A stretch of DNA of 64,000 bases from Thermoplasmatales archaeon. GTDB lineage: Archaea; Thermoplasmatota; Thermoplasmata; Thermoplasmatales; Thermoplasmataceae. The stretch covers positions 124,001 through 188,000 of the forward strand of contig JAJSLM010000003.1 of the NCBI GenBank assembly GCA_026127925.1, read 5' to 3'. A model generated the notes under the pieces. The model worked only from the letters and a program-made list of their open reading frames with translations, ran no database searches and was not told where the DNA came from. The translations under genes and the position numbers were made by a program. Of this stretch, positions 26,908 to 60,272 are shown piece by piece. Positions within the stretch are counted from its first letter, which is position 1. Each line of letters begins with the position of its first letter.

Positions 26908-28030
26908 TTTTCATCACCTTCAGGTAGTCTCTTAGCCTTAAAAGGAAATCATAACAATAATAATCGGCGAAAATGAGTTCCGAATAGATTGCTATATTTC
27001 GTGGGTAGTCAAAACAACCATCTTTCAGAATTACCGAGGATTCGTTTTTTGTTTCTATATGGGAAATCAGAGAATCAAGTATCTGCCGTAGGAGATTATA
27101 GCCATTGTAGCCGTTCTCGACCATTAATAGGAAGGATTCTGCCAGTATAGCCAACGAAGATGTATCCTTGGGAACGTTGGGTATGTTTGGATCTGTCATA
27201 TCATAGTACGGTGTCAGATCTTTATCTTTGTTCACGCTTAGATAAAACGAAAGCCCCTTGGTATAAGCCTCACTATATTTCTCTTGCCGGGTAGCGTTAA
27301 AACCGTATGCGAGAGCGAGGAGGAAGAAGGCTTGACCTCTCGACCATGTAGTAGTGGAATCAAATCCCAGATTGTTCCATTTCTGTATGATGTCCCCATT
27401 CTCAGGGTTGAAGCGAATCATGTGAATGGTTGAGCCGTCTTCCCTCATGAATAATTTAATTGATTGATTCAGGTTTTGAATAGCAACCTCTATGTATCTT
27501 TCGTCCAGAGTCCTTTTGTAAGCCCAGAAAAGCAACGTGTTGGGAATTATTGCATCGTCTACGCCAGCAAGATCCTCGCCCTTTATCCCCGTACCTAGTA
27601 TTTTGCACTGAGAACCAAGCGGAATTAAGCCGTTTTTTTTATTTTGTATTTCTAAAAGTTTATCGGCAGCCTTTAGTGCCAATTTTTCATAATCTTCTGA
27701 CTTTAAGACCTCGGAAAGATGAGCGTAAGAATACCGGAATATAAAGCCTAGAAATTCGTCATTGTCTTCGACACGCTTTGCGATCATACCTAACTTCTTT
27801 TTTGCTTCTTTGAGGAAAGTTTCATCTTTTGACCATTCATAGGCTCTCGTAAGTAGGCCTACCCAGTGCCCACCACTCCAGTCGCAATAGTTAGTTCCAG
27901 TCCATCTTCCAGTTTTTAAATCTTTTGAAAATGGAAAATCCTGTGTATCTTCGTCTATAATCCGTCTAATCTTCTCGGTAATCTCATTTAACAAATCGGT
28001 TATTTTATGAACATCTTGAATTTCAAACAT
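26900..28030 (-). CDS. GH88-like unsaturated glucuronyl hydrolase
   Basis: At 376 residues the length equals the GH88/GH105 families of (alpha/alpha)6-barrel enzymes. CDWSGGHWVGLLTRAYEW (about 49-66) and TTWSRGQAFFLLALAYGF near 227-244 correspond to the conserved WxxGFWxG and SWARGQAW segments of GH88, and PKDTSSLAILAESFL to the following active-site helix. There is no signal peptide, so it acts in the cytoplasm on imported unsaturated uronides. GH105 (unsaturated rhamnogalacturonyl hydrolase) is the main alternative. Its presence implies that polysaccharide-lyase products reach the cell. Confidence 0.75.
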   Translation of the reverse strand: MFEIQDVHKITDLLNEITEKIRRIIDEDTQDFPFSKDLKTGRWTGTNYCDWSGGHWVGLLTRAYEWSKDETFLKEAKKKLGMIAKRVEDNDEFLGFIFRYSYAHLSEVLKSEDYEKLALKAADKLLEIQNKKNGLIPLGSQCKILGTGIKGEDLAGVDDAIIPNTLLFWAYKRTLDERYIEVAIQNLNQSIKLFMREDGSTIHMIRFNPENGDIIQKWNNLGFDSTTTWSRGQAFFLLALAYGFNATRQEKYSEAYTKGLSFYLSVNKDKDLTPYYDMTDPNIPNVPKDTSSLAILAESFLLMVENGYNGYNLLRQILDSLISHIETKNESSVILKDGCFDYPRNIAIYSELIFADYYCYDFLLRLRDYLKVMKIE

Positions 28031-28055
28031 GTCGTCACCACCGTCTCATGAAAAA

Positions 28056-28487
28056 TTAAAATAGAAGGACCGTCTCATAGGAAATAACCTCTTCTTCATT
28101 CTGGTTGAATCCCCTCATACTTATCTTAACTATTTTGTTTTTTGGATCTTTATTTGATTCCCTGACGGAGGTCACTTCTCCCCTAACTCTTATGGTATCG
28201 CCTGGAAACACTGGGCGTTTGAATTTAACATCGTTAATACCCAGATTTGCTTTCCCGTATTCTACTATTCCGTACTCCTTTGAGAGAAATCCCTGACATA
28301 TGGATAATGTCAGAAGACCCTGGACAACCCTCCTGCCAAATATAGATTTTTTTGCATATATATCATCTTCGTGTGCCGGATGAGATTCTCCAGTTAACGA
28401 GGCGTAGAGGAAGATTGCGGCGTCTGGGATAGTCATCCCCCTAGTTGTGAACTTATACCCTTCTTTTAAAAAGCAATTCTCCTCCAA
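28056..28487 (-). CDS. MaoC-like hot-dog hydratase
   Basis: The 143-residue protein has the MaoC/R-hydratase signature near 28-60: YASLTGESHPAHEDD, then FGRRVVQGLLTLSICQGF. The usual GDxNPxH is GESHPAH, so the Asp is replaced by Glu while a His is retained. Members add water to enoyl-CoA substrates, and some act on mesaconyl-CoA-type acids. It lies between the MFS and GH88-like genes with gaps of 6 and 25 bp. With the CaiB-family enzyme it suggests CoA-dependent breakdown. Confidence 0.8.
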   Translation of the reverse strand: MEENCFLKEGYKFTTRGMTIPDAAIFLYASLTGESHPAHEDDIYAKKSIFGRRVVQGLLTLSICQGFLSKEYGIVEYGKANLGINDVKFKRPVFPGDTIRVRGEVTSVRESNKDPKNKIVKISMRGFNQNEEEVISYETVLLF

Positions 28488-28493
28488 TCTTTC

Positions 28494-29867
28494 TCACTTC
28501 CTTGAACTACCAATTTCATTTTCTATTTCCTCCAAGCTCTGTGATTCGCCGCCTTTCGGTGCAAAGAACACTGCGGAAATTGCCATTACGATAGCCATTA
28601 TAGCAAGGATGTATGCAACATACTTCAAACCAAGCGTAAGAAGGATCGCTGGGAACGCAAAGGTCCAACTGTAATTTACATATCTGTCAGTTCCCGAAAG
28701 GAAGCCTCTCCCGGCAGCACGTATGGATGTAGGAAATCTCTCTGTTCCCCATAGCCATATAATTGGCCACATCCCAAATCCTTGGAAAAAGCCGACAATG
28801 CCAACGCCTAGGACTCCGACGATACCATCCTTGAGTGGAATGATTCCAAACATTACAAATCCTATTGCTACCATGATGGAACTAGCAATGAACATGTTTT
28901 TTCTGTTGACAGTTTTGTTTGGTTTGTCCGCATATAACCAGTAAACCAAGATCCCAGCAATACTTGTTAAAAACCAAATTAGATCCATCACTACACCTCC
29001 CACAAAGCCAGTTTTGCCAATGTCCGCAGCAATGTAAGGTAGATAGATGCCGAACGTAGACGCGGGTATAGCCCAAAGAAAGTTCATGAACATTATAAAT
29101 ATAGTGAAACCAGCTAATCCTGGCATAAAGAGATCTTTCCACTTATAGGTACGAAGCTTTTCTGCTGGAGCAGGGACAACATTCTTTTTCGAAACCCCAA
29201 GCGCTTCCTCCAACTCCTTGTCCAGTTTCTGAACCTCTCCCTTGAGGGCAAGGTATCTTGGAGATTCAATAAGCAACAATCTAAGGATCATAGTAAGAAT
29301 AGCAAAACCAATAGCGAAGCTAAATAGTATTTGGAAGCCGACAAGATTCGTAGGGCTAACTAACGCGATCAAAAGCGCAGTTATGGGGCCAATGTACCAC
29401 CATATATTGACCAGACTCATCATTTTCCCTCTGTGTCTTCTTGGAGATATTTCTGCAACCAGCGCCTCGCTTGCTGGTATATCTAGACCAACTCCAATTC
29501 CGACGAGAGCATAGCCTCCAATGAGCACCACAATGTTATAGTTCATGAATGAACTGATCACCATAAGGGCCGAACCTATGATAAAGATTATTAGATCCCA
29601 CATGTAGAGCCTCTTTCTTCCAATCAGGTCAGAAATATGTCCTCCCCCAAATGCAGTAGTGGCCCAAGCGTAGCCAAATATTGCTGGAACAAGTCCTGCC
29701 AACACTGTCGGAATTTTGTAATATGGATCAAGATACACAAGTGCAACGGACCACGCCACTATAGCAAAAGCATCCAGAAATTCTCCTAAAGCTGCTATAC
29801 TTCCCCAACCAAGAAATCTTGCGCTCAGTTTCATGTTGTCGTACTCTTCCATTAGGTTTTCTGTCAT
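28494..29867 (-). CDS. MFS transporter, sugar/sugar-acid porter-like (copy 2)
   Basis: A 457-residue, ~12-helix protein, closely related to copy 1 along its length. Both have RHRGKMMSLVNIWWYIGP-like and GFFQGFGMWPIIWLWGTE motifs. The start has an AGAGGTAAAAAT leader, so a ribosome-binding site is plausible. It is the first gene of the operon with MaoC, GH88-like, MBL, CaiB and MDR genes, and diverges from the HTH_10 gene at 29947. It presumably imports the unsaturated uronide or a related acid that GH88 acts on. Confidence 0.82.
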   Translation of the reverse strand: MTENLMEEYDNMKLSARFLGWGSIAALGEFLDAFAIVAWSVALVYLDPYYKIPTVLAGLVPAIFGYAWATTAFGGGHISDLIGRKRLYMWDLIIFIIGSALMVISSFMNYNIVVLIGGYALVGIGVGLDIPASEALVAEISPRRHRGKMMSLVNIWWYIGPITALLIALVSPTNLVGFQILFSFAIGFAILTMILRLLLIESPRYLALKGEVQKLDKELEEALGVSKKNVVPAPAEKLRTYKWKDLFMPGLAGFTIFIMFMNFLWAIPASTFGIYLPYIAADIGKTGFVGGVVMDLIWFLTSIAGILVYWLYADKPNKTVNRKNMFIASSIMVAIGFVMFGIIPLKDGIVGVLGVGIVGFFQGFGMWPIIWLWGTERFPTSIRAAGRGFLSGTDRYVNYSWTFAFPAILLTLGLKYVAYILAIMAIVMAISAVFFAPKGGESQSLEEIENEIGSSRK

Positions 29868-31873: not shown

Positions 31874-33028
31874 TCATTGTATTTCTATGGTTTTTCCAAC
31901 CTTTTTTAGTTCCTGTACAGTCTGAAGTGCGAGATCCGTCATACCAACAGGACTTATTTGAGTTCCTGAAGGTTTGCCATAAATATGTAGTGGAATGGCT
32001 GAGGAGATATTATCGATAACAACAAGTTCTGCAAGGCCCGCATTTGGAAGCGTACTCATCACGTGCAAAGCCCAAGGTTGTGTAGCAGCATTATGCGGAG
32101 AGAATAAAACTCCGTGAGTTTGAGCCGCATAGCCTATTCTTAAAGCAGCAGATATACCACCGCACCAAGACAAGTCAGGTTGTATAATATTGACTATCCT
32201 TGTACTTAAAAATCTATTTGCTTCAACTGGATCGTGTATGAAATTACCCACAGCTATTCTTTGCCAAGGAATTGAATTTCTGATTATTCTATAACCCTCA
32301 ATATCCGTGGATTCTATCGGGTCTTCGATCCACGAAATCCTTGTGTCGTGAAGCGCGTTGCAAACTTCTATTGTGAACTCAGGATCCCAAGAGGAAAAAC
32401 AGTCAATAGCTATTTCCTTGTCAGGGCCTAGATATTTCTTTATACTTCTTACGATTTTCACCAGTGAGTTGATTCCACTTTTACCATCTTCCGGGCCGAA
32501 ATTAGCTGCCACCTTATAGAGTCCATAAATTGGGTTATCAATTCGTGCTGTCGCTGAGATGGTGCCATATATCTTGAGGTTTTCATTAATCATCCCTCCC
32601 AACATGTTATAGATCGGTTCTCTTTTTGCATTAGAAATTAAGTTCCATAGTGCAATGTCAACTGCTGCTATTCCTGACATAATCATTCGACCATGCCCAT
32701 AGGGGGCGGTGGATCGGTACATTAAATCGTAAATCAGATTAATATTCAGAGATTCTTCATTCAATAAAAAGCCTGAAAACTGATCTTTAATTATACCTAT
32801 TACGCTTGTACCACCTGATGTTAAAGAAGTCCCAAAGTTTCCCTCCCTATCCTCTAGAATGCATAGAACACGAGTATCAAGGTTCATCCAACTTTCTCTG
32901 GATGCAGAATAGTTGTTGTATTTTACCATCGGTCCGTAGATCCTTTCATCATCAAGCCAAGAGTTTTTATTTCTCTTTGGTAATTCAATTAAAGTTATTT
33001 TATCCACTTGCAGCGGTTTATTAAGCAT
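31874..33028 (-). CDS. Enolase-superfamily acid-sugar dehydratase (second, RhmD-like)
   Basis: The 384-residue protein has metal ligands in AIDCFSSW (Asp), ISWIEDPIES (Glu) and a third at AVGNFIHDP where the usual Glu is Asn (GNF instead of GEH). The base pair is in IIQPDLSWCGGIS and FSPHNAATQPW. YKVAANFGPEDGKSG resembles the KxPLxYGPxDG loop of L-rhamnonate dehydratase, but the usual KxK is not clear. It probably dehydrates another sugar acid. It stands alone between two IS graveyards and is less conserved than the copy at 21548. Confidence 0.7.
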   Translation of the reverse strand: MLNKPLQVDKITLIELPKRNKNSWLDDERIYGPMVKYNNYSASRESWMNLDTRVLCILEDREGNFGTSLTSGGTSVIGIIKDQFSGFLLNEESLNINLIYDLMYRSTAPYGHGRMIMSGIAAVDIALWNLISNAKREPIYNMLGGMINENLKIYGTISATARIDNPIYGLYKVAANFGPEDGKSGINSLVKIVRSIKKYLGPDKEIAIDCFSSWDPEFTIEVCNALHDTRISWIEDPIESTDIEGYRIIRNSIPWQRIAVGNFIHDPVEANRFLSTRIVNIIQPDLSWCGGISAALRIGYAAQTHGVLFSPHNAATQPWALHVMSTLPNAGLAELVVIDNISSAIPLHIYGKPSGTQISPVGMTDLALQTVQELKKVGKTIEIQ

Positions 33029-33119
33029 ACAGAGACTATTATATTATGCTAGCATAAAAGAATAAGCCCTGATATATCCGATAACTCAAATCGCTGTGGA
33101 ATTGGGATAGAACCTATAA

Positions 33120-33358
33120 CGTCTATCTGTTATGGATCCATTGCAAACTCATGAGGGAGTATGGCGACCTTAAGCCTCTGAGAAAGTACTCCGCGGAGAA
33201 AATGCTGCTGTAACTAGAGAAACTGCATGTTGTGTAAGATGACAGCGGAAACATTAGCGAACTAGAAAGAACAAGAAAATATAAGGATGTCCTTATGTCA
33301 ACGCCGGTTGAATTTTTTCAAAATCGCCAGTTAATTCTTTCCACTTTCCATTACGGAA
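33120..33358 (+). pseudogene. IS1634-like transposase N-terminal remnant
   Basis: A plus-strand frame from about 33130 reads KLMREYGDLKPLRKYSAEKM, followed by a stop and LEKLHVV. It resembles the segment of IS1634-type transposases that precedes the catalytic core. A short further piece (STPVEFFQNRQLI) follows at about 33298. The matching C-terminal half is at 34037-34747, so the intervening IS21 pieces split one element. Confidence 0.4.
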
Positions 33359-33420
33359 GTGGTGATTTGGCTGTTCGACGCGGAGGTGTGGCATTTGATT
33401 AGAGAAAAGAGGGACATGAA

Positions 33421-33602
33421 CAGGGTATCCAAGCTGGAATCTTACAAAGCGTACATAAAGGAGAGGATAGATCGGTACAATCTATCAGCAGTCCGTATAC
33501 TTGAGGAGATAAGGAAGAAAGGGTATAAGGGTGGGTACTCAACACTCAAGTATTACTGCGCCACACTGAGAAAGGATCATGCCATCACTGCAGTGATCAG
33601 GT
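33421..33602 (+). pseudogene. IS21 IstA internal fragment, near-copy of 20072-20254
   Basis: About 180 bp reading RVSKLESYKAYIKERIDRYN and onward to ITAVIRF are almost identical at the DNA level to the minus-strand IstA remnant near 20072-20254, with only a few differences seen by eye. The copy stops abruptly at about 33602, where an oppositely oriented IstA piece begins. The high identity suggests recent movement or recombination. Confidence 0.65.
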
Positions 33603-33962
33603 TCCGTCTCATAGCGGTATACTGCCTGAACTCTACGATCACTGCGCAGTTCCCTACAGAGCCTCTTGACAGTTGTGTATGATCCGAGATAACCTTTTTC
33701 TCTGATCTCATCATATATCCTCACAGCAGAGAGGTTATATTTGTCAATCCTCCCCCTTACATAATCAGTGTAAGGGGCAATGACAGACTACCTCCCCTCT
33801 CTGCTGTATTTCGCCGGCTTCTCCATTGCAATGTACTTCCTCACAGTTTTCCTGCTCACTCACGTTCTCCTTACTATCTCACTTATGTTCATTCCCTGTT
33901 CTTTCATGGCTTTAAACATGTGCCAATCCTCCGCTGTAAGCGCATTTACCATCTCCAGCATG
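33600..33962 (-). pseudogene. Second IS21 IstA N-terminal remnant
   Basis: On the minus strand from 33962 the frame reads MLEMVNALTAEDWHMFKAMK, NISEIVRRT, TGA, VSRKTVRKYIAMEKPAKYSR, TAG, then DYVRGRIDKYNLSAVRIYDE. That is a typical IstA N-terminal helix-turn-helix with two in-frame stops. It is a diverged relative, not a copy, of the fragment at 33421. Confidence 0.65.
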
Positions 33963-34036
33963 AAAATGCATGGGGTGGTAAATATTCAATGGCCCTTTTT
34001 AGATACTTTTCAATGGCCGAAAATGGGTAAATTTGA

Positions 34037-34747
34037 ATGGGCGATTACACTGGCCATCCCATGGGTGGCCTTATCGTGAAGGAGGTTACGATAAGCCCCA
34101 AAGAAATAATTAGGGGCACTCCTACTGAGGATCAAATAAAGCTTGCAGAAAAGAGGATATACATAGCAGTATACAACAGTGACAGGGAGGAACTCGATCT
34201 TATAGATCTGGAGAAGAAGATCGGTGCCGTCAAGAAGAAGATCTCTGAAATTCATGATCCGGGTGATCTGAAGAAATCGCTGGGGAGTCTCAAATCGCTT
34301 GTCAAGTTCACCAAAAACTCTTCTGTACTCAATGAGAGTCTTATCGATATCATGCGGAAACTGGCAGGAAGATTCCTCATAGTCACGAACACTGATCTTC
34401 CTTACGGAGAGATTGTATCAGCTTACAAGGAACAGTGGAAGATTGAGCGTACTTTCCGGGCAATAAAATCATTCCTTGATATCAGACCGGTATACCACAG
34501 AAAATTCGATAGGATAAAAGCGCATGTTTTCGTCTGTGTATTATCATTTCTTGTTTCCGCCATCATGGAGAAGTCCACTGGAAAATCGATTAAGAGCATA
34601 AGGAAGGATCTGAATTGCCTGGATATTGTTCCATTAACTGTCGAAAACAGGAGGATCTACGTTTCATCCGATAGCCCGGAAGCGTCGTCCCTTCTTAAAA
34701 GTCTGAAAATACCATATCCAAGGATCCATGAAAGTGCACATACATAA
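34037..34747 (+). pseudogene. IS1634-like transposase C-terminal half
   Basis: The 236-residue frame has the DDE transposase end region of the IS1634 (IS4-superfamily) group: GRFLIVTNTDLPYGEIVSAY, then KEQWKIERTFRAIKSFLDIR with the YxxQWxIExxFR motif holding the last catalytic Glu, and VFVCVLSFLVSAIM. The N-terminal catalytic part is missing from this frame. A terminal repeat follows at 34813-34834. It is the surviving part of an interrupted element. Confidence 0.75.
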
Positions 34748-34812
34748 TTTTTCATGATTCACAGGAAACCATATCGAATACACGCTCTGCATGAAAATCT
34801 GACAATGATTCT

Positions 34813-34834
34813 CATACGAAACTCAAGTTTAAAG
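34813..34834. repeat. Terminal inverted repeat of the IS1634-like element (copy 2)
   Basis: It matches the repeat at 20783-20804 in 20 of 22 positions and lies 65 bp beyond the transposase stop, with TTTAAA as the outer end. It marks the right end of this element. Confidence 0.6.
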
Positions 34835-34938
34835 TACTCGGATTATCAAACTTTTGAACAAGTTAAAAGGTAAGACTATAAACTGCGCTATATAGCGTTT
34901 AATAAAGAGAAACGTTATACCTTTACGGTATATTATTT

Positions 34939-37104
34939 TTAGAATATTTTTATAACAGCCATCATCATGTTCTGTGCCATTAAGCTCACGGTAAGAATGC
35001 CCTGAGAAACTATAGTCACGGAAGAACTTGCTAATGAAGTGTCTCCCAGTTTTGTTCCGTTAGGTAAAGTAACAAAGAACTTACCCTGTATTCCTGCAAG
35101 GTTAAGATAATGTTCAGCTAGAGGTACATTGTAAGTTTCCGGAGCAAGGCCTTTTGTTGCATTGTTATAGAAACTGGTGAACCCAGGAGATATTGGACCT
35201 ATGTAGTTCTCTGCAAGGAACATTTTAGAGCCGTTAGAGAAAGTGTAGTAGTACGGTGAATCAATTGCAGTCTGGTTTATCGAATACCATATAGCTTTCC
35301 TAAAGTCAAGTATGTTTGTCGGGAATTTGTAGTTGTTCATTGAGATGTAATAGACTATAGCTATCGGGCCAACATTCTTCCAATAACTGTTTAACGGTAA
35401 TTTGTCATAGGGTGTTGAATCAATTATTGAACTAAGGTAGGATGAGCTCACTAACGAAAGTTGGTATGTGTTGTCAAGAAAACCAGAAACCCTTCCGCTG
35501 TGATCCACTGTGTAATCCATTGTTACTGTTTTTATGTGTGCAGGCTGAGCAATCAAGGGAAAGTTACCTATTGGTTTGTTAGTAATGCTGTTCCAATAGG
35601 TGTTACCCCAGTAGTTGCCAACTTTAGCTATTACCGCCGAATCTAATGAGGCCCCCACACTAAAAATATGGTATGGACCTGTCCCCGGCATTCCATTTAC
35701 GTTTGTGTAATTGTTAGATTCTGTCGCGATAACTCCGTCGTGACTGTCTATGAATAATGGATCAGCTATGTTTCCCCACCAAAGTGCGATATTTAAAAGA
35801 AAGAATCGGTAGGGATGAAGGATATTAATAGTAAGATTGAGTGTGCTAGCATTCGTCACGAAGTCGGGAACAGCAACGGCCTGATTCGGATATTCCAGAA
35901 GCTTTGCCTGTGTCCCGTTGCTCCATGGATCATAATGAGAAAGCATTGTTGCTAGGAAATTGGCTGCAAAGATTGTGTTCGACTTATTAAGGTTAGAATA
36001 GTTTGTCTCATAAGGCATTTTTAGGTAAGACTCACCTGTTTCATTGTAAACAGTTCTCACTGCATGCAGCCAACCTGCTGGGATTGAGTACGGCGCCGTT
36101 GCAGCATACGCTGAATTATTGAATAGCAGGTCACCATAGTCATCAACAGAAACACCCTGGGCCATAACTATTGTTCTGTAGAATGAGAACCAAACCGTTG
36201 AAGCGTTCACAGGATCTGAATTGTTAAAGTGTATTCCTGAACGAAGCGTTATGCCGTAGTTCTGGTCCAATATCCCACCAGTCGGAGTCGTTGGCATACC
36301 AGACGCAAGAACTGGAACCACTTGGGAAACCGTTCCATTTAACTCATAAAGCTGCTGATAGAGTGCAGCGAACACAGGTCCGTCCTCGGTTGTAAACCCA
36401 TGTGAAGGATCAAGGGAATCAGGTGGAGCTAAGGCGCCGCCATCAGCTACATCAGTAAGATTACTGTTGCTCGGAGCTCTAATACCGTTAACATTATAGC
36501 TCATATTATACGACATTAAATTATAAAAATAATTTTCAAAATGAAAGTATGAGAAGTTCTTAACGTAAGGCTGAACAAAGAAAGAAAGCGAAGGATTTGG
36601 AAGCCATAGATAATTGTATTGATCATAAAAGGTATGGTACAAGCTCACGAACTCATTCATCTGGGCTGTCGCATTTGTCATAAATGCTGTGTTAAGCGCT
36701 ATACTGCTATTCAGTGTAGCATTAGTAGTCCAAGCCTCGTTTGCCCCGAACGCACCACCGTTAGCATATGAGGTCATTGGATACAGCATTTGAGCTATTG
36801 GGTCAGCCCAATCTGGACCCCATGCCAGATCAACAAATTGTGGTGTAGACTGTGGCGTAGTCCACGTTCCTAATATTGCTGGTGAAACTAGTTTTATGCC
36901 AACTGGTATCCCTAATGCTTTATAATTATTCACTATAACCCCTAGCTGATATTCATCCAACGTACTTAGCGGAGAAAGAGCTGTCAAATGGAGAGTCGGC
37001 AAATTAGTTTTCGCCGGATGCGTAGCCATATAGCCAAAGTATCCACCGATTCCTGTCGCAACAAGCACAACCACTATAACTATGACCAAAACTTTTTTAT
37101 TCAC
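34939..37104 (-). CDS. Solute-binding protein of Opp type with circularly permuted halves
   Basis: The 721-residue product begins with a signal-anchor (VLVIVIVVVLVATGIGGYFG, 5-24). Residues ~35-200 resemble the C-terminal half of SBP_bac_5 proteins (AWGPDWADPIAQML, 94-107; a MNEFVSLYHTFYDQYNYLWL helix). Residues ~220-690 then resemble the N-terminal half (SLDPSHGFTTEDG, 230-242; GITLRSGIHF; GMPGTGPYHI, 471-480; a LAEHYLNLAGI segment near 662). The tail ends at the point where the C-terminal half would normally begin again. It starts at GTG after GAGGTGA, 4 bp behind the rhamnosidase gene, so it probably binds rhamnose-containing oligosaccharides. No permease is adjacent. Confidence 0.7.
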   Translation of the reverse strand: MNKKVLVIVIVVVLVATGIGGYFGYMATHPAKTNLPTLHLTALSPLSTLDEYQLGVIVNNYKALGIPVGIKLVSPAILGTWTTPQSTPQFVDLAWGPDWADPIAQMLYPMTSYANGGAFGANEAWTTNATLNSSIALNTAFMTNATAQMNEFVSLYHTFYDQYNYLWLPNPSLSFFVQPYVKNFSYFHFENYFYNLMSYNMSYNVNGIRAPSNSNLTDVADGGALAPPDSLDPSHGFTTEDGPVFAALYQQLYELNGTVSQVVPVLASGMPTTPTGGILDQNYGITLRSGIHFNNSDPVNASTVWFSFYRTIVMAQGVSVDDYGDLLFNNSAYAATAPYSIPAGWLHAVRTVYNETGESYLKMPYETNYSNLNKSNTIFAANFLATMLSHYDPWSNGTQAKLLEYPNQAVAVPDFVTNASTLNLTINILHPYRFFLLNIALWWGNIADPLFIDSHDGVIATESNNYTNVNGMPGTGPYHIFSVGASLDSAVIAKVGNYWGNTYWNSITNKPIGNFPLIAQPAHIKTVTMDYTVDHSGRVSGFLDNTYQLSLVSSSYLSSIIDSTPYDKLPLNSYWKNVGPIAIVYYISMNNYKFPTNILDFRKAIWYSINQTAIDSPYYYTFSNGSKMFLAENYIGPISPGFTSFYNNATKGLAPETYNVPLAEHYLNLAGIQGKFFVTLPNGTKLGDTSLASSSVTIVSQGILTVSLMAQNMMMAVIKIF

Positions 37105-37108
37105 TTTT

Positions 37109-39877
37109 TCACCTCATTTTAATTACAATACTATAATCACCAGAATTCAATTCGTATCCGATTTTCTCTTTGTCTTTCCTTTTAACCAGGAGGTTACTGT
37201 TTATTGATACTACATCTTCAATCTCCCTATTATCTAACTCGATCAAACATTTTGTGTTTGTAGGTACATGTATGTAAACCTCTCTTTTCTCCTCACTTAG
37301 GGACTTGAAATTATAATAAACAAACCCTTTGGGGGACTTAAAGGAAAATCTCAGGTTCCTAATTTCTTTCACAAAATGTGGCGATATTTTGAATTCATCG
37401 AATCCGGGATTTTCAAAACATGGCTCTATTCCAACGAGTGTATCAAAGAACCAATTATCGACGGTACCAAACATTATATGGTTATGCGAATTCATACCCC
37501 CCTCAGTTGGCTTTATGTTATTGAGTTCTTTTAATGAACTGTTTGTCAACAGTTCCCATCTCTCCCATAACGTTGTGGCGCCCTCCTTTAACATGTATCC
37601 CCATCCAGGGTAACTTGTTTGTGTAACCACTTTAAATGCAATGTCGGAGTGACCATGTAATGATAAAGTCTGGAGTAAATACCTAGTTCCCCATATACCA
37701 GTGTTTAAATGATTATCGCATTTTATTACAATATCTTTTAACAGGTAATCAAATATTTCACCCCTCTTTTCAGTTGGCGTTATACCAAAATATAACGGTA
37801 AAATTTGGGAAGTTTGTGTTCCATATTCTCGATCACCATAGTAGGATATTTGAAACTTTTCAGGCAATCCAGATCTTTGTTTATCTAAAAATGGAGAAGA
37901 CAGCTGTTCTCTCACTATTAGAAACCTTTGGTTAAAAGCATTTTTAACAATTTCCTTATCTCTTTCGAAAGCCTCATGGTCATTATTTCCCAGTACTTTG
38001 GCTATTTTTGCCATTATGTCTAAATCCTTAAACAAAATAAAAGTGGCATACAACTCACCAGGGGTATCCAAAGGTCTGATCATCTTCGGCGGGCACCAAT
38101 CTCCATATTTATAAAATACCAAAATACCATCTTTGGTCTTACCACGAAGGAAATCTAACCACTTCTTTACGTAAGGATAATAGTCAGACAATATCTTTTT
38201 ATCACCATAATACCTATATACATCCCAAAGAATTGATATATATTCATCACCCCAACCAGGATCTGCTGGATAAAGCTGCAAAAAAGGTGGAACAACATCT
38301 GGAATTTCACCATCCTCTAGTTGTGAGTCCCTTATATCATCTAACCATTTCTTATAAAATCCGTACATGTCAAAATTCATTATAGATTCTTCGGCAACTA
38401 GACTAGAATCTCCTAACCACCCCATTCTTTCGTCTCTTTGGGGACAATCGGTTGGAATTCCCATTAAATTACTTACTTGTGACCAGAGGACCATTTTATG
38501 TATCTTATTAAGTATCTCATTCTCTCCACCAAAAACGATACTACCAACTGGATCTACATTACTGTGCACAATTTTCCCTTCTACCATGTCTAGGGTCAGA
38601 AATAGGTTCTTTCCTTTAATCTCCACGTACCTGAAACCATGATATGTAAATCTTGGCTCATAAATCTCATGACTTTCTCCTTTCGATATATACCTGTCTT
38701 CGTTTTTCGCTGTATTATTTGAACCCGTATTTATGCCATTTTCATCCAGTAATTCTGCAAACCGCAGTTTAATTTCATCTCCTTTCTTTAGTCCTTCTAA
38801 TTTTATTTTGATCCAGCCGCTGTAATTTTGACCGAAATCCAGAATATACCGATCTGGATCATTATAAACGATGGACCTCGGTTTCATAGTCCCTATAATT
38901 TCAATTGGAGGAAATAATGCGTCGGAAACAAGCTCACCTAAAACAGAATCTGAATACGTGCAAATTTTCCATTTAGAATCGTCAAATGAGGGCAGATCCC
39001 AGCCAGATTGTTCTAATCGAGCATCATATACCTCACCGTTATATATATCAGCATATAATATGGGTCCAGAAGACGTTTTCCAAGAATCATTAGTACCAAA
39101 ATAAATAATTTGTCCATCTTTAAAAGTCAAAAGTACGTCCATAATAACTTGATGTTTACCATCGTATCCGTATTCAGCGGTATATCGACTATTGCCCACC
39201 ATGACCCCGATGCAATTCATATTTTTTTTAATATTCTCTGTCACATCGTAAGTTGAATACAAAACCTTTTTTTTGTAGTCTGTCCACTGAGGTGTTAAAA
39301 CTTTTGTTCCTATCTTTTTACCATTTACTCTCAACTCATAGTACCCAAGTGCACTTATGTAAATTTTTGCGCTCTTAATATCATTATTGACATTAAATTC
39401 CTTCCTGAGTATTGAATCAACCAAAATCCATTTTCCTTTCCATGCATTTTTTTCAATAAAAGCAGTTTCAAATGAATATACGTCGCTAAATACACTTACC
39501 TCATCATAATTGTCCCACCATTTAACTCGCCAATAATATTTCGAAAAATTTTCAAGAGGCAAGCCTTCGTAATAAATAAATGAGGTCTTCTTAGATATCA
39601 CTTTTCCGGAATCCCACTCATCACCTACTTCATTATATACCCTAGATTTATTCTTTGATACAATTATTCTGTATGCAACTTGATTACAATTGACTTTTTT
39701 GGAATTAGGTAACCATGAAAAAAATGGGTCCTCTATATCTAAGCCTATTGGATTTTCTACAAAGTTTATCCTCCCGTATAACACCTTATTTAGAGAATCA
39801 TCCACGATGTTATTATGATTTAATACAATATAAACAATTAGCCGGACAATTCCGGACTTGACCATTCTTTCTGGCAA
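37109..39877 (-). CDS. Alpha-L-rhamnosidase, GH78
   Basis: The protein is 922 residues from the first ATG; homologues normally begin near VENPIGLDIEDPFFSW (residues 40-55), so the first ~31 codons are doubtful and GTG at 39784 is an alternative start. The catalytic region carries TDCPQRDERMGWLGDSS and WLDDIRDSQLEDGEIPDVV, diagnostic for GH78. N-terminal beta domains (YYWRVKWWD, YYELRVNGKKIG) and a C-terminal beta domain flank the (alpha/alpha)6 barrel. No convincing signal peptide is seen. It would remove terminal L-rhamnose from glycosides or polysaccharide fragments and feeds the rhamnose genes in this window. Confidence 0.88.
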   Translation of the reverse strand: MPERMVKSGIVRLIVYIVLNHNNIVDDSLNKVLYGRINFVENPIGLDIEDPFFSWLPNSKKVNCNQVAYRIIVSKNKSRVYNEVGDEWDSGKVISKKTSFIYYEGLPLENFSKYYWRVKWWDNYDEVSVFSDVYSFETAFIEKNAWKGKWILVDSILRKEFNVNNDIKSAKIYISALGYYELRVNGKKIGTKVLTPQWTDYKKKVLYSTYDVTENIKKNMNCIGVMVGNSRYTAEYGYDGKHQVIMDVLLTFKDGQIIYFGTNDSWKTSSGPILYADIYNGEVYDARLEQSGWDLPSFDDSKWKICTYSDSVLGELVSDALFPPIEIIGTMKPRSIVYNDPDRYILDFGQNYSGWIKIKLEGLKKGDEIKLRFAELLDENGINTGSNNTAKNEDRYISKGESHEIYEPRFTYHGFRYVEIKGKNLFLTLDMVEGKIVHSNVDPVGSIVFGGENEILNKIHKMVLWSQVSNLMGIPTDCPQRDERMGWLGDSSLVAEESIMNFDMYGFYKKWLDDIRDSQLEDGEIPDVVPPFLQLYPADPGWGDEYISILWDVYRYYGDKKILSDYYPYVKKWLDFLRGKTKDGILVFYKYGDWCPPKMIRPLDTPGELYATFILFKDLDIMAKIAKVLGNNDHEAFERDKEIVKNAFNQRFLIVREQLSSPFLDKQRSGLPEKFQISYYGDREYGTQTSQILPLYFGITPTEKRGEIFDYLLKDIVIKCDNHLNTGIWGTRYLLQTLSLHGHSDIAFKVVTQTSYPGWGYMLKEGATTLWERWELLTNSSLKELNNIKPTEGGMNSHNHIMFGTVDNWFFDTLVGIEPCFENPGFDEFKISPHFVKEIRNLRFSFKSPKGFVYYNFKSLSEEKREVYIHVPTNTKCLIELDNREIEDVVSINSNLLVKRKDKEKIGYELNSGDYSIVIKMR

Positions 39878-40573
39878 AAATCATCTCAAGATACAAATTA
39901 TGAGAATTTTAAGGGACATATTCTTTATACTGTTTTATTGCTTATTTCTCTTAACATACGGTAAACTTTCTCGATTGAACGTTGGCCGTTTGCGAGGGTT
40001 GAGAGAAGTAATATAATAGATTAGATACGGATTCATTAACATTGGAACGAGTTAAGAGTTCAGTGATCTAAAGGTTATCAGAACCTGCGGTACAAGCCTA
40101 AGGACTATTATATAAAGATCGCATAATAGTATTATAACGAATAAAACGTCTGCCAGGTACCCCAATGATCAGATCACAATCGATGATCTCTTCAAGAAGC
40201 TGAATGAGCAAGATAAGATCAATGATGGACTCAAGAAGGAAATGACTCCCTGAGAAAGGATCTAGAGAAACTGAAAAAAGAACTTGTAGGTTACAAGATA
40301 GGACATCCTGAAAACGTTCATTTGACAGTAGCATCTCTGTAATATTATACGGGTATTCTGAAAACTCTTAGCCAAAATAACAACTACTTTTAATTGGTTG
40401 AATCGGGTTATTTATCATAAAATGTCTATCACGGTATTTTTTTAGTTCGAGATCCTCTCAATGGATACATTTTTAACCTAACAAAACCGAAAACTAGAGG
40501 GTCAGCAATAAAGTACCGTACATGTCTTGAATTAAATTTATATTTTTTCAATTAATAATCTTCGAGATGACTT
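39878..40573. other. Intergenic with a decayed coiled-coil transposase fragment
   Basis: At about 40165-40340 the plus strand reads TIDDLFKKLNEQDKINDGLK, a stop, then after a one-base shift LRKDLEKLKKELVGYKIGHP. That is the heptad-rich N-terminal style of IS66-type transposases (LKKELxxYKxPH). It is a relic. Elsewhere I see no gene. An AT-rich stretch with TTTATATTTTTT near 40536-40547 precedes the permease start. Confidence 0.35.
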
Positions 40574-42004
40574 ATGGAACATTATATCGACGGGAATAAG
40601 TTGGAACCTAATCAGGTTTCTGTGCTGAGAGCCTCATTTTACTCATTGGCAACGATCTTACCATTCGGTGTTTTTGGTTTTGCGGCGATAGGTGTCATTT
40701 CATTTACTCCTTATGCTGTTGAAGCTTTTTTGGTTGGATTCTTAGTTACACTGGTATCGATAGGAATAGCAATACCTTTCAGTAAGCGAATTTCAAACGC
40801 AGGTGGATGGGCTGCCTATGCAGCTGCTGGTGCAGGGAAGCAAATTGGTTATCTTACGGGATGGGCCTACGCAGGGGGATATACTGTTAGTACAGGGGCA
40901 CTGTCTGCAACAACGGGTTATCTAACATCAGTTTTCGTATCATATTTCTATCACATTACGCTGCCACTGTACCTTGTGTACGCCATCGACACTTCAGTGA
41001 TTCTTGTTGCTTTTTTCGTAGCTCGGTTGAAGGTAAAACTGATGACGTATGTTGGTGCTATCATTGGAGCTATTGAAGTAGGTTCGGCAATTGCCATTGC
41101 TGTTTTTATAATTGTTCTATTGGGTGAACACAACTCGTTTCAGCCGCTAACATTCCCAAAAATTGGCTCATTACCAGCCTTCTTTGTGGGTTTTATCGTT
41201 GGTGCATTGGGAAGTTATTCAGGATACGGAGTAATCCTGACATTATCCGAGGAATCAAAGATACCTAAAAGAAATGTTGGTAAGGCTTTGCTGCTTACTG
41301 TGATAACGGCTGCCGTTGTGTTCATTCTTGGAACATACGCAATAGTTGCTGGTTGGGGATTCTCAGATTTATCTTCATTGATTTCACTTACTGCACCAGG
41401 ATACACTGTTATAGGAAAATATCTAGGAAAATCTATTGCTATATACGCTTTAGTTTTACTCCTAATTGCAGATTATGGTACCTCGATCGGTTTAATGGGG
41501 GCAGCATCAAGAGTGTACTACTCTCTGGGAAGAGATCATATAATTCCTCAATGGTTTTCTAAATTGAACAAGGGAGATGTGCCGGAGAATAGCTCCTTGC
41601 TGATTGCATTGGTTGGCCTAATTCTTGCAATTGGATTAACACAGATATTCGTATTTGTATATGGGGCTGTAGAGGGCATATTTTACGGCGTTGCTGTGCT
41701 TGGCCTCTTCGGAACTTTTGTTTTCATATTTTATCATATCACAACTTCCATTTCTATGCCTATCTATTTCAAACGAATTGACCAGTTTAAATTTTATTAT
41801 ATAATTTTGCCCGTTATTGCCATTGTTGTGTTTTTAATCATTCTATACTACTCGCTTTTGGGTATTACTATGCCCCTTCTAATCATGCCTGTAGCCGTTG
41901 TAGTCTGGCTGATACTTGGGCTGATATTAATCAGAAGAAGTATGAGGCTCTACAACATAAAGGAATTTAAACTAGACCAACTTGAAGAAGGTAACGGAAA
42001 ATGA
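40574..42004 (+). CDS. APC-superfamily amino-acid permease
   Basis: The 476-residue protein has about 12 membrane helices. The N-terminal region (SLATILPFGVFGFAAIGVIS, then NAGGWAAYAAAGAGKQIGYL) resembles the APC consensus of unwound helix 1 and the SxxGGxYxY motif. SGYGVILTLSEESKIPKRNV corresponds to the GFE...E...P.R..P motif. A weak GAGATGA precedes the ATG. The stop overlaps the aminotransferase start by 4 bp, so the imported amino acid is probably its substrate. Confidence 0.85.
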   Translation: MEHYIDGNKLEPNQVSVLRASFYSLATILPFGVFGFAAIGVISFTPYAVEAFLVGFLVTLVSIGIAIPFSKRISNAGGWAAYAAAGAGKQIGYLTGWAYAGGYTVSTGALSATTGYLTSVFVSYFYHITLPLYLVYAIDTSVILVAFFVARLKVKLMTYVGAIIGAIEVGSAIAIAVFIIVLLGEHNSFQPLTFPKIGSLPAFFVGFIVGALGSYSGYGVILTLSEESKIPKRNVGKALLLTVITAAVVFILGTYAIVAGWGFSDLSSLISLTAPGYTVIGKYLGKSIAIYALVLLLIADYGTSIGLMGAASRVYYSLGRDHIIPQWFSKLNKGDVPENSSLLIALVGLILAIGLTQIFVFVYGAVEGIFYGVAVLGLFGTFVFIFYHITTSISMPIYFKRIDQFKFYYIILPVIAIVVFLIILYYSLLGITMPLLIMPVAVVVWLILGLILIRRSMRLYNIKEFKLDQLEEGNGK

Positions 42005-42951
42005 TGAGATTTGAGACTGGTTCGTGGATTCATTCTCACACGGGAAAATACGATCTTTCACAGAGCGGTATGTACGGAAGAATATCTCTAGATAAATACT
42101 TCGATGTTAAATCTTTAGTGTCTGAGGAAGATCTGAAAGATTCCATAGCAAGTATAAATGATTGCAACAAATCTCAGGTTGTTATAACTCACGGAGCTAC
42201 TGAAGCATCTTTTACATCTCTTTATCACATATATGAGACCGGAATCAAAGATAGCAAAACAAATCTTCCGGAGTACGAACCACTTTATAAATTACCACTA
42301 CAAATCGGTTTTTCAAATGAGGACTTTGGTTTATTTATCACTAGCAACCCCAATAATCCTACTGGTGCCTTAATCCAATTACCTGTTGGTTATTCTGGTT
42401 ATTTGATCGACGAAACTTTTCTTCTGTTTTCCTCTAGTCTAGACATGTTACATTATCCTGCCAACACTTATCGTACTAACACATTTACCAAATTTTTTGG
42501 AGGAGATGACCTACGAGTTGGATACATCATTGCACCGAGTAAAAAAGAAGCTGAGGCCATAGAAGCTCTAAGAGGAATATTCACAGAATATGTTTCTAGG
42601 TACAATATCTCCGTTGCATATCGGATATTAAACGATTTGGATTCAATAGTCCAGAATGTGAGGGATATTCAGACGAAAAACTACAATTTTCTTTTGAAAA
42701 ATAAAGGCAATTTAAAATTTTATTTAGATAGACAGCCTAAACTAGGCACAGTCTCGTTTTTGGACTATTCAAAACTTTCTGAAATTGATTCTCTCACTTT
42801 TTCTGAGCTGCTTTTTAAAGAGTCTATATCCGTTGTTCCAGCTAAATTCTTTGGAATAACTGGCCCTTACATTCGGGTTTGCTATTCACGCAGTGATTTT
42901 CCTGATTCCTTTAGTAAACTAATAAACTTCTTGGACAGCATTTCAGTATAA
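42001..42951 (+). CDS. Class I/II PLP aminotransferase, short form
   Basis: The 316-residue protein has THGATEASFTSLY (PLP phosphate loop region), SNPNNPTG, the Lys region TFTKFFGGDDLRVGY with the Schiff-base Lys, and YIRVCYSR with the carboxylate-binding Arg. It is about 60 residues shorter than usual (aspartate aminotransferases are ~390), mainly at the N-terminus and between the first two motifs. It is translationally coupled to the amino-acid permease. The substrate amino acid is unknown. The HTH_10 gene downstream is in the other orientation. Confidence 0.8.
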   Translation: MMRFETGSWIHSHTGKYDLSQSGMYGRISLDKYFDVKSLVSEEDLKDSIASINDCNKSQVVITHGATEASFTSLYHIYETGIKDSKTNLPEYEPLYKLPLQIGFSNEDFGLFITSNPNNPTGALIQLPVGYSGYLIDETFLLFSSSLDMLHYPANTYRTNTFTKFFGGDDLRVGYIIAPSKKEAEAIEALRGIFTEYVSRYNISVAYRILNDLDSIVQNVRDIQTKNYNFLLKNKGNLKFYLDRQPKLGTVSFLDYSKLSEIDSLTFSELLFKESISVVPAKFFGITGPYIRVCYSRSDFPDSFSKLINFLDSISV

Positions 42952-43219
42952 TGTGAGCAAGTAAGATCTGTTCTACAATCATCATATTTTTACCTATTTT
43001 TTTTGACCTAGGGAGAGAGATTTTAGGAAATTCTATTCTTTATCATCGCTCTCGTCGATAAGGAAACAAAGACGATCACATGTCAAACAGTCCGTATGGC
43101 AGATTTGTTGTTAGGGAATTTGTCGAACTGTAATGAGGTATGAAATAACGGTTAATTTTCGGTTTGGGTATTTGATGCATGATTAGGTACTTTAGCAGAT
43201 GTACGATTCCTTGTTTATT

Positions 43220-43894
43220 TCAGTATTTGGCCATTTCAGAATTTATTATCATATTTTCTGCCTTTCTCAGATGCTCCTCTACAGTTGATTTTGAGAGCCC
43301 CGCTGCCTTGGATATCCCAAGAAGATACGTACGTTTGGGTAATTCATAGTAACCCTTGCTATAAGCTATCTTAAGGATTTCAATCTCGCTCTCTGAAAGC
43401 GAAAGATTGAATTTTAGGTACCTTTCTTCATCAACATGCATAAACTTGAAATCAAAGACTCTGCCAATGTTTTCCAAATCATGCTTCAGGCTATTTACTT
43501 CTTCACTCGGTAACATAACAGAAAGGTTTTCATACCCACTGGAAATAGTATCATTTTCGTACAGCACAGTATAATTATCTAGGAGTCCGCTGAGCATCTG
43601 ATCATATTTCTCTAGGAATAATACCTTGTAATGGTGTTTAGAACCTGCAATGTTCGTAACACTGATCACCTTCTTTACTGATGGGTGCATACCTAAGCGT
43701 CGAACAAAACTACCGAGGGATGCACTCGAGTCACTCTGGATCTCGATGAAACCCAAAATTCTGTCCTTCTCTCTTTGCGGCTTCACAATCAAAGTGTGTA
43801 TCTTTACAGGAAGTTCTTCGCCTAGCAAAGTCCAACAACCTTCATGGGAAATCTTGAAATCAACTTTCGAAAAATCAACAGGTGTATACTTCAT
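43220..43894 (-). CDS. HTH_10 (bacterio-opsin-activator-like) regulator 3
   Basis: This 224-residue protein is the third member of the local HTH_10 family, with HEGCW at 17-21, a variable alpha/beta middle and a C-terminal HTH (LSESEIEILKIAYSKGYYEL, then LGISKAAGLSKSTVEEHLRK). A TATATAATT-like box lies too close to the ATG (about 13 nt), so the promoter is not settled. It faces the RhaM gene across about 200 bp, so rhamnose genes are the likely targets. Confidence 0.75.
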   Translation of the reverse strand: MKYTPVDFSKVDFKISHEGCWTLLGEELPVKIHTLIVKPQREKDRILGFIEIQSDSSASLGSFVRRLGMHPSVKKVISVTNIAGSKHHYKVLFLEKYDQMLSGLLDNYTVLYENDTISSGYENLSVMLPSEEVNSLKHDLENIGRVFDFKFMHVDEERYLKFNLSLSESEIEILKIAYSKGYYELPKRTYLLGISKAAGLSKSTVEEHLRKAENMIINSEMAKY

Positions 43895-44063
43895 ATTGTC
43901 AAATTATATAGCTCTCACTGGTATTAAAATTTTCTATACAACATAGGATAATATTTTCCATGTAGAATGTTTTAATAAAAAGATAAACGCCCACTCTTGT
44001 GAATTTCTTGGAAAGTAAATGTTTTGTTGCAACAATAACAAATACCGTACATATCTGCAAAAA

Positions 44064-44073: not shown

Positions 44074-44094
44074 AAAATTATGCAATTTAGATTT

Positions 44095-44402: not shown

Positions 44403-45179
44403 TTATTGAAGGTTTACGAGCATCCCACCGTCTGCAAGGAGCTCCGCACCCGTAGAATAGGTGTTCTCCTCCGAAAGTAAGAACAAAGCTGGACCGACCA
44501 TGTCCTCAGGAGTTCCAAGTCGACCGATTGATATTCGTTTTTCCATGTAATTCCTCTTTTCGAGGTTAGAAAGGTCCTCCCTGTTTATGTCTGTTAAAAT
44601 AGTTCCGGGCTCCAACGAGTTTACCAGGATGCCGTATTTTCCAAGCACAATGGCAAGGGAATGCATAAGTCCATTCAAAGCAGACTTCGTCGTAGTATAA
44701 TGTGCCTGAAATTCACCCCCAACATGTGCACTGATTGAACTCATCATGAGTATTCTTCCTTTTAACTTCTCATGTATCATGTGAGAGGCGATTTTTTGCG
44801 TTATGAAGAAATGGCTTTCTACATTAACTTTCCAGACCTTTTCAAAGAGAGGTGCATCAATATCAAAAAAGGCCTTAAATGGGCATATTCCAGCGTTGTT
44901 CACTAATACGTGTATTTTTCCAAGTTTTTCTACAGCAAAATTCGTGAATCCATCAACCTGATCCACATCACTTTGATCTATTTTATAACTAAATGCTCTG
45001 ACTCCGAAGCCCTTCATTTCCCTTACTGCTGATTCTGCCTCATCGGGGTGACTAGAATAGGAAATGCAAACGTTTGCTCCCTCTCGTGCCAGTCCAATTG
45101 ATATCGCCCTCCCAATTCCTCTTGAACCACCGGTAACAACTGCTCCCTTTCCTAGAAATCTTTTCTGATTGGTAATCAT
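44403..45179 (-). CDS. SDR sugar dehydrogenase (copy 2), probable L-rhamnose dehydrogenase
   Basis: This is a 258-residue classical SDR: TGGSRGIGRA at 16-25, NNAGICPF, Ser in MMSSIS, and AHYTTTKSAL with YxxxK. The C-terminal ADGGMLV closes the fold. It is a paralogue of the SDR at 18517. Being convergent with rhaM, it is the better candidate for L-rhamnose 1-dehydrogenase, an activity known from Thermoplasma. A TATA-like GGTTTATCTT is about 29 nt upstream of the ATG. Its coenzyme preference cannot be fixed by eye. Confidence 0.82.
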   Translation of the reverse strand: MITNQKRFLGKGAVVTGGSRGIGRAISIGLAREGANVCISYSSHPDEAESAVREMKGFGVRAFSYKIDQSDVDQVDGFTNFAVEKLGKIHVLVNNAGICPFKAFFDIDAPLFEKVWKVNVESHFFITQKIASHMIHEKLKGRILMMSSISAHVGGEFQAHYTTTKSALNGLMHSLAIVLGKYGILVNSLEPGTILTDINREDLSNLEKRNYMEKRISIGRLGTPEDMVGPALFLLSEENTYSTGAELLADGGMLVNLQ

Positions 45180-58195: not shown

Positions 58196-60040
58196 TTAAT
58201 CATTCTTTCTCTTTTGCTTTTTGTTGTTTAGGTAGAGAACAGAGCCTATTGCTACAACTGCGACCACAACGCCGACAGCAATATAGTCATAGGTTAACGG
58301 ACTAATTCCTTTATTAGGTGTAGCAGAGGTGTTCAGTGGATACAGGTGAAGCATCACAACTTCAGACGGCCCTGGGTACCATGGAACAGGTATCCAGAAC
58401 GGATTCGAGGCATTCGGCCATCCACCTATTGAAGTATTCACGTATTCATACCACTGAGCAGAGTAGACCAGAGGAATCATAGGCATCTGTTCCGTAACGA
58501 TTGTTACCATGTGGTTTATATCGCTCTTTTGGTAGGTCAGATTTCCTGTAAGCGTGTAGTTGTTGTAGTAAGTCATAAAATTAGTTGAGGAATAATTCCA
58601 CCTCTCCTCATTGATATATGAAGTATTTCCAATGGGGACAATGTTGCCAATGAAGCCGCCATAATCATAATATGGCGTAGGTCCAACTCCTGTAACTGTA
58701 TCAAGTGCCATTTGGTAATTTCCGTCAGATATGTCGCTTGCTATAACGCTTGAAGTGGGTGTTGTCGTTGTAATGGTGAGTCCGATCGCCTTGAGATCTT
58801 TTGCAATGATGGTTATGTCCGTATCCCAGTCAGTGTAACCCGCCACAGACATCAAGTTCAAATCAGGAACTACAGTTCCGTTAGGGGCAGTGAGCTGACC
58901 CTTTGAATTGAGTTTATATCCGTGGTCTGATAGTATGCTTAGTGCGAGAGTAACGTTGTATTCTGCAAATTTGTTGGCCAAATTCGTGTTAGACGTGTTA
59001 AGATACGACATCTGCTGCTGCAGTATATTCGCGCCATTTGCGGGTGTCTCGTATCCATATTCTCCGATGTTGTCTATAGCTGTTCTATTGATAGCCACAC
59101 TCAGTGCTTCTCTGAAGAATGTCTGGTTAAGCGGGTAGATGAGGTTATTCAGGACTATGGTAGTCTGTTGCCCCGGAGGATACCAGTATTTGTTATGCGC
59201 GGGATTATTGGCTGTAAATAATTGAGTCACGTTTGGTTCAAAGACAGAGGCCCATTCGACCTTACCCTCCGCCAAAGCGAGTGCAAGTGCACTGTTGCTG
59301 GTATAATCAACATAGACTACGTTTGTAATTTTTGGTTCATTTGGTTGCCAGTAATGAGGATTTTTCGTAAGCACTATCTTTTGAGGACTGAAGCTCTGCA
59401 GTATATATGGTCCAGTTCCTATCGGATCTGTAACTATCTGACTTTGGGGATCAGGAACGCCGTTAGATGTTGCATTTTCCCATGTCTCGTTTACCGGGAA
59501 AATAACCTGTGATCCGATATAGAAGAGATACTGGGTCTGTGGTGAAGTGAATTTGAACGAGACCTGGTATGGACCTACGGCGGTAATGTTGCTTATAACT
59601 GGCCATGAACCAAGAGCTTTCTTTTCAAGATTAAAGGTATAAACAACATCTTGTGAGTTGAAGGGAGCACCATTGCTATAAGTTACATTATGACGCAATG
59701 TGATGTTAAGGTACATGCCATTAGGGCTAAACTTATACGACGTTCCCAACCAGGGCAGTACAGTTCCATTGTATGTATTTATCTGGAACAACGGCTCAAA
59801 AATGAATCCCATAATCCCAGCAGGAGTTGTCCATACGTTGAACGGGTTAAAATTATCCACGAACGCGGCAGTTGGTCCCGGGGAGAGATACAGCGTACTC
59901 TGGTTGCTCGCAGTTGCTGCATTTGTCACAGTCGATGAGTGCGCGACAGACGAATGCCCACCGAAAACGACAAATCCAGACAAAACCATAATCAACGCAA
60001 TTGCTACTGCAATTTTTCGTTTACTACTTATTATTGTCAT
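58196..60040 (-). CDS. Opp-type solute-binding protein, probable oligosaccharide binder
   Basis: From ATG 60040 the protein is 614 residues. A TATA box 25 nt upstream supports this start over the earlier ATG at 60052 and the long open frame. It has a signal peptide (IAVAIALIMVLSGFVVFGG), the canonical SBP_bac_5 order (DNFNPFNVWTT, LNITLRHNVTYSNG, GTGPYILQSF, then the C-terminal half AKDLKAIGLTI), a Thr/Asn-rich end and a C-terminal membrane anchor (DYIAVGVVVAVVAIGSVLYL) with a basic tail. This is the archaeal membrane-anchored form. It heads the ABC operon. Compare the permuted protein at 34939. Confidence 0.88.
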   Translation of the reverse strand: MTIISSKRKIAVAIALIMVLSGFVVFGGHSSVAHSSTVTNAATASNQSTLYLSPGPTAAFVDNFNPFNVWTTPAGIMGFIFEPLFQINTYNGTVLPWLGTSYKFSPNGMYLNITLRHNVTYSNGAPFNSQDVVYTFNLEKKALGSWPVISNITAVGPYQVSFKFTSPQTQYLFYIGSQVIFPVNETWENATSNGVPDPQSQIVTDPIGTGPYILQSFSPQKIVLTKNPHYWQPNEPKITNVVYVDYTSNSALALALAEGKVEWASVFEPNVTQLFTANNPAHNKYWYPPGQQTTIVLNNLIYPLNQTFFREALSVAINRTAIDNIGEYGYETPANGANILQQQMSYLNTSNTNLANKFAEYNVTLALSILSDHGYKLNSKGQLTAPNGTVVPDLNLMSVAGYTDWDTDITIIAKDLKAIGLTITTTTPTSSVIASDISDGNYQMALDTVTGVGPTPYYDYGGFIGNIVPIGNTSYINEERWNYSSTNFMTYYNNYTLTGNLTYQKSDINHMVTIVTEQMPMIPLVYSAQWYEYVNTSIGGWPNASNPFWIPVPWYPGPSEVVMLHLYPLNTSATPNKGISPLTYDYIAVGVVVAVVAIGSVLYLNNKKQKRKND

Positions 60041-60060
60041 TACTCGATTCATCCAATGGG

Positions 60061-60070
60061 TATATTTATA
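60061..60070 (-). promoter_or_regulatory. TATA box of the ABC operon
   Basis: TATAAATATA (read on the minus strand) lies about 25 nt before the ATG at 60040. It points to a leaderless message for the solute-binding protein, where TrmB-type repression would act. Confidence 0.5.
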
Positions 60071-60272
60071 GTTTGAGCATTTTAATATACTTAGGAATGT
60101 AGTATAGGATACAACAGCGAAATTTACAGCCTCTTCAAAAATACAGTCTCTAGCTGGGATAATCATTCTTAAAACATAGCAAATTTGCAAGAAGAGAGAG
60201 ATGTTTCATTAACTTTAGAGAAATTAATGGAGAGTACACAAGTATCGGCTTGGGACTCTTTTTTGAGTGGTT

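Follow-up and report, generated by a model that had tools for sequence, protein, structure and literature searches.

A circularly permuted family-5 solute-binding protein in a Thermoplasmatales archaeon, and the recurrence of the permuted order in archaea

The window analysed here is a stretch of 64,000 nucleotides from a Thermoplasmatales archaeon (assembly GCA_026127925.1, contig JAJSLM010000003.1, positions 124,001 to 188,000), whose genome of 1.73 Mb in 17 contigs contains five SBP_bac_5 genes. The gene under study, perm1, its parts and the genes with which it is compared or associated are listed below, with the basis of each assignment in brackets.

34939..37104, minus strand: perm1, a circularly permuted SBP_bac_5 protein of 721 aa with a GTG start (open reading frame, Pfam, swapped two-block alignment, dN/dS).
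37021..37104, minus strand: N-terminal signal anchor of perm1, aa 1-28 (sequence, weak match to the anchor of a canonical paralogue, junction comparison).
36496..37002, minus strand: C-block, the C-terminal part of the SBP fold, aa 35-203 (BLASTP, C profile).
36469..36495, minus strand: short linker between the former C- and N-termini, aa 204-212 (alignment).
35047..36468, minus strand: N-block, the N-terminal part of the SBP fold, aa 213-686 (BLASTP, N profile, Pfam).
34942..35046, minus strand: C-terminal tail of 35 aa, aa 687-721, ending NMMMAVIKIF (shuffle tests).
37109..39877, minus strand: GH78 alpha-L-rhamnosidase, directly upstream of perm1 in the same operon (Pfam Bac_rhamnosid domains, junction sequence).
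44403..45179, minus strand: L-rhamnose 1-dehydrogenase-like SDR (NF041159 at 442 bits, slightly below the cut-off of 450).
31874..33028, minus strand: L-rhamnonate dehydratase-like protein of the enolase superfamily (NF011968 at 198.7 bits, below the cut-off of 393; Pfam MR_MLE_C).
58196..60190, minus strand: canonical-order SBP_bac_5 comparator with an N-terminal signal and a C-terminal TM segment (single Pfam match, 144-512, to profile 2-359).

Along the chain, the parts of perm1 are ordered anchor, C-block, N-block and tail, with the anchor at the N-terminus, the place it also holds in canonical relatives. The Pfam family SBP_bac_5 (PF00496) is matched significantly (81.5 bits against a cut-off of 32.4) by aa 281-683, at profile positions 17-297 of 368 only. 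By BLASTP, a canonical-order paralogue of the same subfamily (652 aa; contig C8, L009:5810-7768) aligns to perm1 in two swapped blocks, where perm1 residues 212-716 match residues 41-508 of the paralogue (38% identity, E 1e-97) and residues 35-200 match its residues 485-650 (36% identity, E 1e-30). Both blocks are complete, the C-block spanning positions 2-168 of its profile (E 1.7e-72) and the N-block positions 1-441 (E 1.7e-209). Each homologous segment occurs once, in swapped order and without a leftover duplicate, and the reversal of the blocks makes perm1 a permuted variant rather than a collinear member of the family. The initial annotation of this DNA had placed the C-terminal half before the N-terminal half and proposed a circular permutation; the swapped alignment bears out both, and a single collinear match preceded by an unrelated N-terminal domain was not what we found. 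It had also taken the SBP at 58196 to be in normal order, as its single Pfam match confirms, although this protein is a distant relative of perm1. A second permuted paralogue, perm2 (contig C1, L006:6459-8648), is 78% identical to perm1 over its full length and has the same order. Of a third permuted copy, contig C15 carries a frameshifted fragment (L058:7461-7700) that comprises the end of the N-block and the tail and shares about 80% identity with perm1. A DDE transposase fragment (34037-34747) lies immediately downstream of perm1 on the opposite strand.

From the Pfam coverage, which is confined to profile 17-297, together with the transposase fragment, perm1 might be read as an SBP that has lost its C-terminal part, for example to a nearby insertion element, behind an N-terminal domain unrelated to it. 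Against this reading, the N-terminal segment aligns to the C-terminal part that would be missing (E 1e-30), so that the alignment of aa 35-200 already refutes it, and the C1 paralogue and homologues in other genera share both the order and comparable ends; we give this reading virtually no weight. Because both blocks align to the canonical paralogue and perm2 has the same order, perm1 is neither a truncated SBP nor one with an unrelated domain added. That perm1 is a circularly permuted family-5 (cluster C, Opp/Dpp type) solute-binding protein is strongly supported.

The gene is under strong purifying selection, with a dN/dS against perm2 of 0.054 for the whole gene, 0.055 for the N-block and 0.11 for the tail (in the C-block, dS is saturated). 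Its GTG start lies 5 bases past the stop of the GH78 gene, which it follows in an operon, and no ABC genes adjoin it. Elsewhere, the genes after the permuted SBP of L041, from a Thermoplasma genome, form an OppBCDF set made up of two permeases and two ATPases that carry oligo_HPY domains; permease or ATPase genes adjoin the permuted SBPs L103, L104, L145 and L153; and homologous Opp-type genes sit beside perm2 on the opposite strand. These observations bear on whether the permuted proteins could be non-transport relatives, such as sensors or adhesins, or decaying paralogues. Such a reading could draw on the position of perm1 beside a GH78 gene instead of ABC genes and on the frameshifted third copy on C15, but it is quite unlikely given the strength of purifying selection and the several permuted homologues that sit with OppBC and OppDF genes.

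The pairing of perm1 with a GH78 gene, from which the initial annotation suggested a rhamnoside ligand, is real, as illustrated by the Bac_rhamnosid domains and the 5-base junction. Together with the rhamnonate dehydratase-like and rhamnose 1-dehydrogenase-like genes, GH78 marks positions 31874-45179 as probably a region for L-rhamnose use. A rhamnoside ligand is plausible, with circumstantial support from these neighbouring genes, and could use the importer encoded beside perm2. Among the other permuted homologues whose neighbourhoods were read, no obvious GH78 neighbour was seen. Directly below the rhamnose region, at 26900-29867, are genes for a sugar MFS porter and a GH88-like protein.

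The initial annotation had also proposed looking for the same order across archaeal proteomes, and permuted genes, some of them fragments, were found in 29 archaeal genomes from two phyla. A first contig search with a single protein as query gave no match. A family-level search returned contiguous permuted homologues in five genera (G000, with two, G048, G057, with two, G062, G060, G074 and G053). They are present in Thermoplasma sp. KMA_Bin19, whose genus code G057 shares, and in UBA447 (G062), where several copies lie at contig ends and a further one (L046:6836-8705) is interrupted by stop codons or a frameshift. Class-wide profile searches added the permuted groups f24/f32 (L103, L104, L106, L145-L148), f2 (L105, G212) and f27 (L149-L156, L184). 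The difference in order is visible with the DppA_dipep model, of which positions 44-373 match aa 215-561 of the permuted L105, while the canonical L157 gives one match over 44-529. The cut point, here called type A, is identical in all Thermoplasmata groups. Across 341 genomes of the phylum, no junction-spanning match was found outside the class Thermoplasmata at E 1e-30, and a whole-genome search of five other archaeal genomes gave a junction-spanning match in G642 only, where L192 shows the type A order, flanked by an N-terminal signal and a C-terminal TM segment. In bacterial plasmids, the best 25 places spanned about 1,480 bases for an 813-base query, which we read as the canonical order. 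A second cut point, at about position 290 of the DppA model, is found in the Thermoproteota proteins L201-L204 (G668, G692, G700, G742), which run from an anchor through a CARDB domain to model positions about 281/296-501 and then about 40-270.

The C-terminal tail required separate treatment. According to the initial annotation, the last ~25 residues of perm1 were a renewed beginning of the second half. On visual inspection, the tail was convincing as a duplicate of the C-block start, but shuffles ruled this out: in 23 permuted proteins, the tail scored no higher against the C-block start than did shuffled sequences or other windows taken from that protein (mean z -0.4, combined p 0.97). That proposal is not borne out, and the residues instead resemble a canonical C-terminal tail, since canonical Thermoplasmataceae relatives carry a similar extension of about 30 aa past the C-lobe (...MTSIFMAGVKIF, compared with ...NMMMAVIKIF in perm1; p 0.003). 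With a similar tail and anchor in canonical relatives, the ends are constant and only the binding core is permuted. In other groups, the canonical relatives lack such a tail while their permuted forms have one. Between groups, tail similarity exceeds that of shuffled sequences for groups 1 and 2 and for groups 2, 3 and G212 (p 0.005-0.015), and does not for groups 1 and 3. Similar tails also recur in L103-L106, L145-L156 and L184, across separate permuted groups (SELVARIKF, RDLVARDH, LDMIIARIEI), and are absent from the canonical sisters.

For phylogenetic analysis, the blocks of every protein were first put in canonical order. On a careful tree of 53 proteins, 6 order changes are required, each of them imposed by supported branches, and a single origin was recovered in 0% of bootstraps. 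Trees built from the N-block only and from the C-block only each contain 6 changes and agree with one another, so both blocks of a protein have a common history. AU tests rejected a single clade of all permuted proteins (p 1.2e-49) and, within f24/f32, a single permuted clade (p 0.0008); in f24/f32 gain and reversion are indistinguishable. When the second phylum is included, the tree has 7 changes, and the canonical L207 is sister to L201-L204. There have been at least four or five separate permutation events, and permutation in archaea is widespread and recurrent, with two cut points. One ancient permutation common to all, with canonical forms produced by numerous subsequent reversions or a tree obscured by gene conversion, is an unlikely alternative to which the shared type A cut point of the Thermoplasmata groups, the cross-group likeness of tails (groups 1/2; groups 2, 3 and G212; p 0.005-0.015) and the inseparability of gain and loss in parsimony counts lend some support. 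It is opposed by the permuted G212, nested in a canonical genus and order-level clade where three of the four genomes of the genus are canonical at the locus, by the grouping of permuted blocks with local canonical sequences in the separate N and C trees, and by the different cut point in Thermoproteota.

The comparison of G212 with G296, from one genus, captures the recurrent change in place. The loci are collinear and share a neighbouring gene, and their upstream DNA and anchors are similar; the core blocks, which retain 79-81% DNA identity and 86-88% aa identity, are exchanged. The genus was sampled in three further genomes, each with the canonical order at this locus; the change therefore ran from canonical to permuted, and recently. 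Within ABC transporter operons, in-place exchange is also seen at syntenic loci of same-genus genomes between G397 and G336 and between G228/G112 and G268/G141, and likewise between G250 and G336. Linkers and tails differ between permuted and canonical forms, so the exchange was not a clean cut and paste. At the junctions, neither direct nor inverted repeats bracketing the blocks, nor remnants of a duplicate, were found. The tandem duplication and trimming envisaged in the initial annotation is a plausible route, but the C-terminal leftover it cited as the duplicate was wrong, and no repeats or remnants were found. Most likely, the core was duplicated inside the gene and the first N-block and the last C-block were then lost. 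Candidate intermediates of tandem duplication (L162, L169-L173, L178-L182) were ruled out, as they have no second C-lobe and their N-terminal extensions look PKD-like; they are canonical SBP_bac_5 proteins with long extensions of this kind between the anchor and the binding core.

A more far-reaching possibility is that a DNA process specific to the locus, recurrent and perhaps reversible, reorders the core, such that both orders coexist or alternate in populations and re-tether or re-tune the importer, which we consider very unlikely. A programmed or hotspot-driven rearrangement toggling the core between the two orders is highly unlikely: the shared cut point, the several in-place changes and the constant ends would fit it, but the blocks have no direct or inverted repeats around them, the differing linkers and tails make the exchange unclean, and the permuted form is stable over whole clades.

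How the permuted core would fold can be considered against DppA and OppA, in which both termini lie in domain I. The type A cut presumably falls in domain III. On this geometry, the old termini should be easy to join, and the tether would shift out of domain I into domain III. In the arrangement we propose, the short linker would connect the old N- and C-termini, which in canonical relatives both lie in lobe I, and the new break in the chain would come between the last helix of the N-block and the next strand, with the anchor and the C-terminal tail keeping their places such that the membrane-tethered binding core alone is permuted. The most probable fold is the familiar two-lobed trap, which would bind a peptide or glycoside and deliver it to an OppBCDF-type ABC importer, with the membrane tether now probably entering via the other lobe. 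AlphaFold models were built from few sequences and are of low confidence (pLDDT 47.7 and 35.4). In the PDB, phmmer gave no match, and a profile search of the copy used returned canonical family-5 chains only, none of them permuted. Order, completeness of the blocks, recurrence, in-place change, purifying selection and the operon context of homologues are supported by the data themselves, and a complete two-lobed fold, the ligand, re-tethering and the duplication route are what we infer. The explanation as a whole, a tethered family-5 SBP with a permuted core, a two-lobed fold, delivery to an Opp-type importer and recurrent origin by duplication, is very probably correct.

Among known proteins, the SBP_bac_5 members DppA, OppA and NikA share with perm1 all parts of the fold at significant similarity, and homologues of perm1 sit with OppBCDF genes, but in perm1 the parts are permuted and it is the C-terminal part of the fold that carries the anchor. 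Canonical Thermoplasmataceae proteins (L009:5810-7768; L062) belong to the same subfamily and have the N-terminal anchor, some with a similar tail, and differ in order. The Thermoproteota proteins L201-L204 are likewise anchored, permuted SBP_bac_5 proteins, which are cut at the other point and have a CARDB domain added after the anchor. The only permuted binding protein found in the literature searched, from which subscription journals were mostly absent, was TpMglB-2 (Tp0684), a 'Type Ic / cluster Bc' glucose-binding protein with a natural circular permutation that its authors suggest may relate to tethering (PMC4990184); no published permuted family-5 protein was found there. TpMglB-2, a two-lobed ABC solute-binding protein, is like the archaeal proteins membrane-tethered and naturally permuted in many species. 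It is, however, bacterial and of the Type I/cluster B sugar-binding fold, with the first N-lobe strands moved to the C-terminus and with structure and binding shown, whereas the archaeal proteins are of cluster C (SBP_bac_5), permuted recurrently and at two cut points. The profile matches of perm1 are to family-5 proteins only, placing it outside the Type Ic class.

The main observation is real, well supported and broader than first claimed. The archaeal proteins constitute a second permuted class of binding proteins, beside TpMglB-2, and their permuted order explains why annotation profiles cover them only in part. As a rule, a natural circular permutation is deduced from structures and goes back to a single ancient event. 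The family described here has been permuted at least four or five separate times, at two cut points, and one of these events is recent and took place in situ within a genus that otherwise keeps the old order, which makes the family an unusually clear natural example of protein circular permutation. With several events and a recent in-place case, it can be tested directly how permutation proceeds and what it does to a transport protein.
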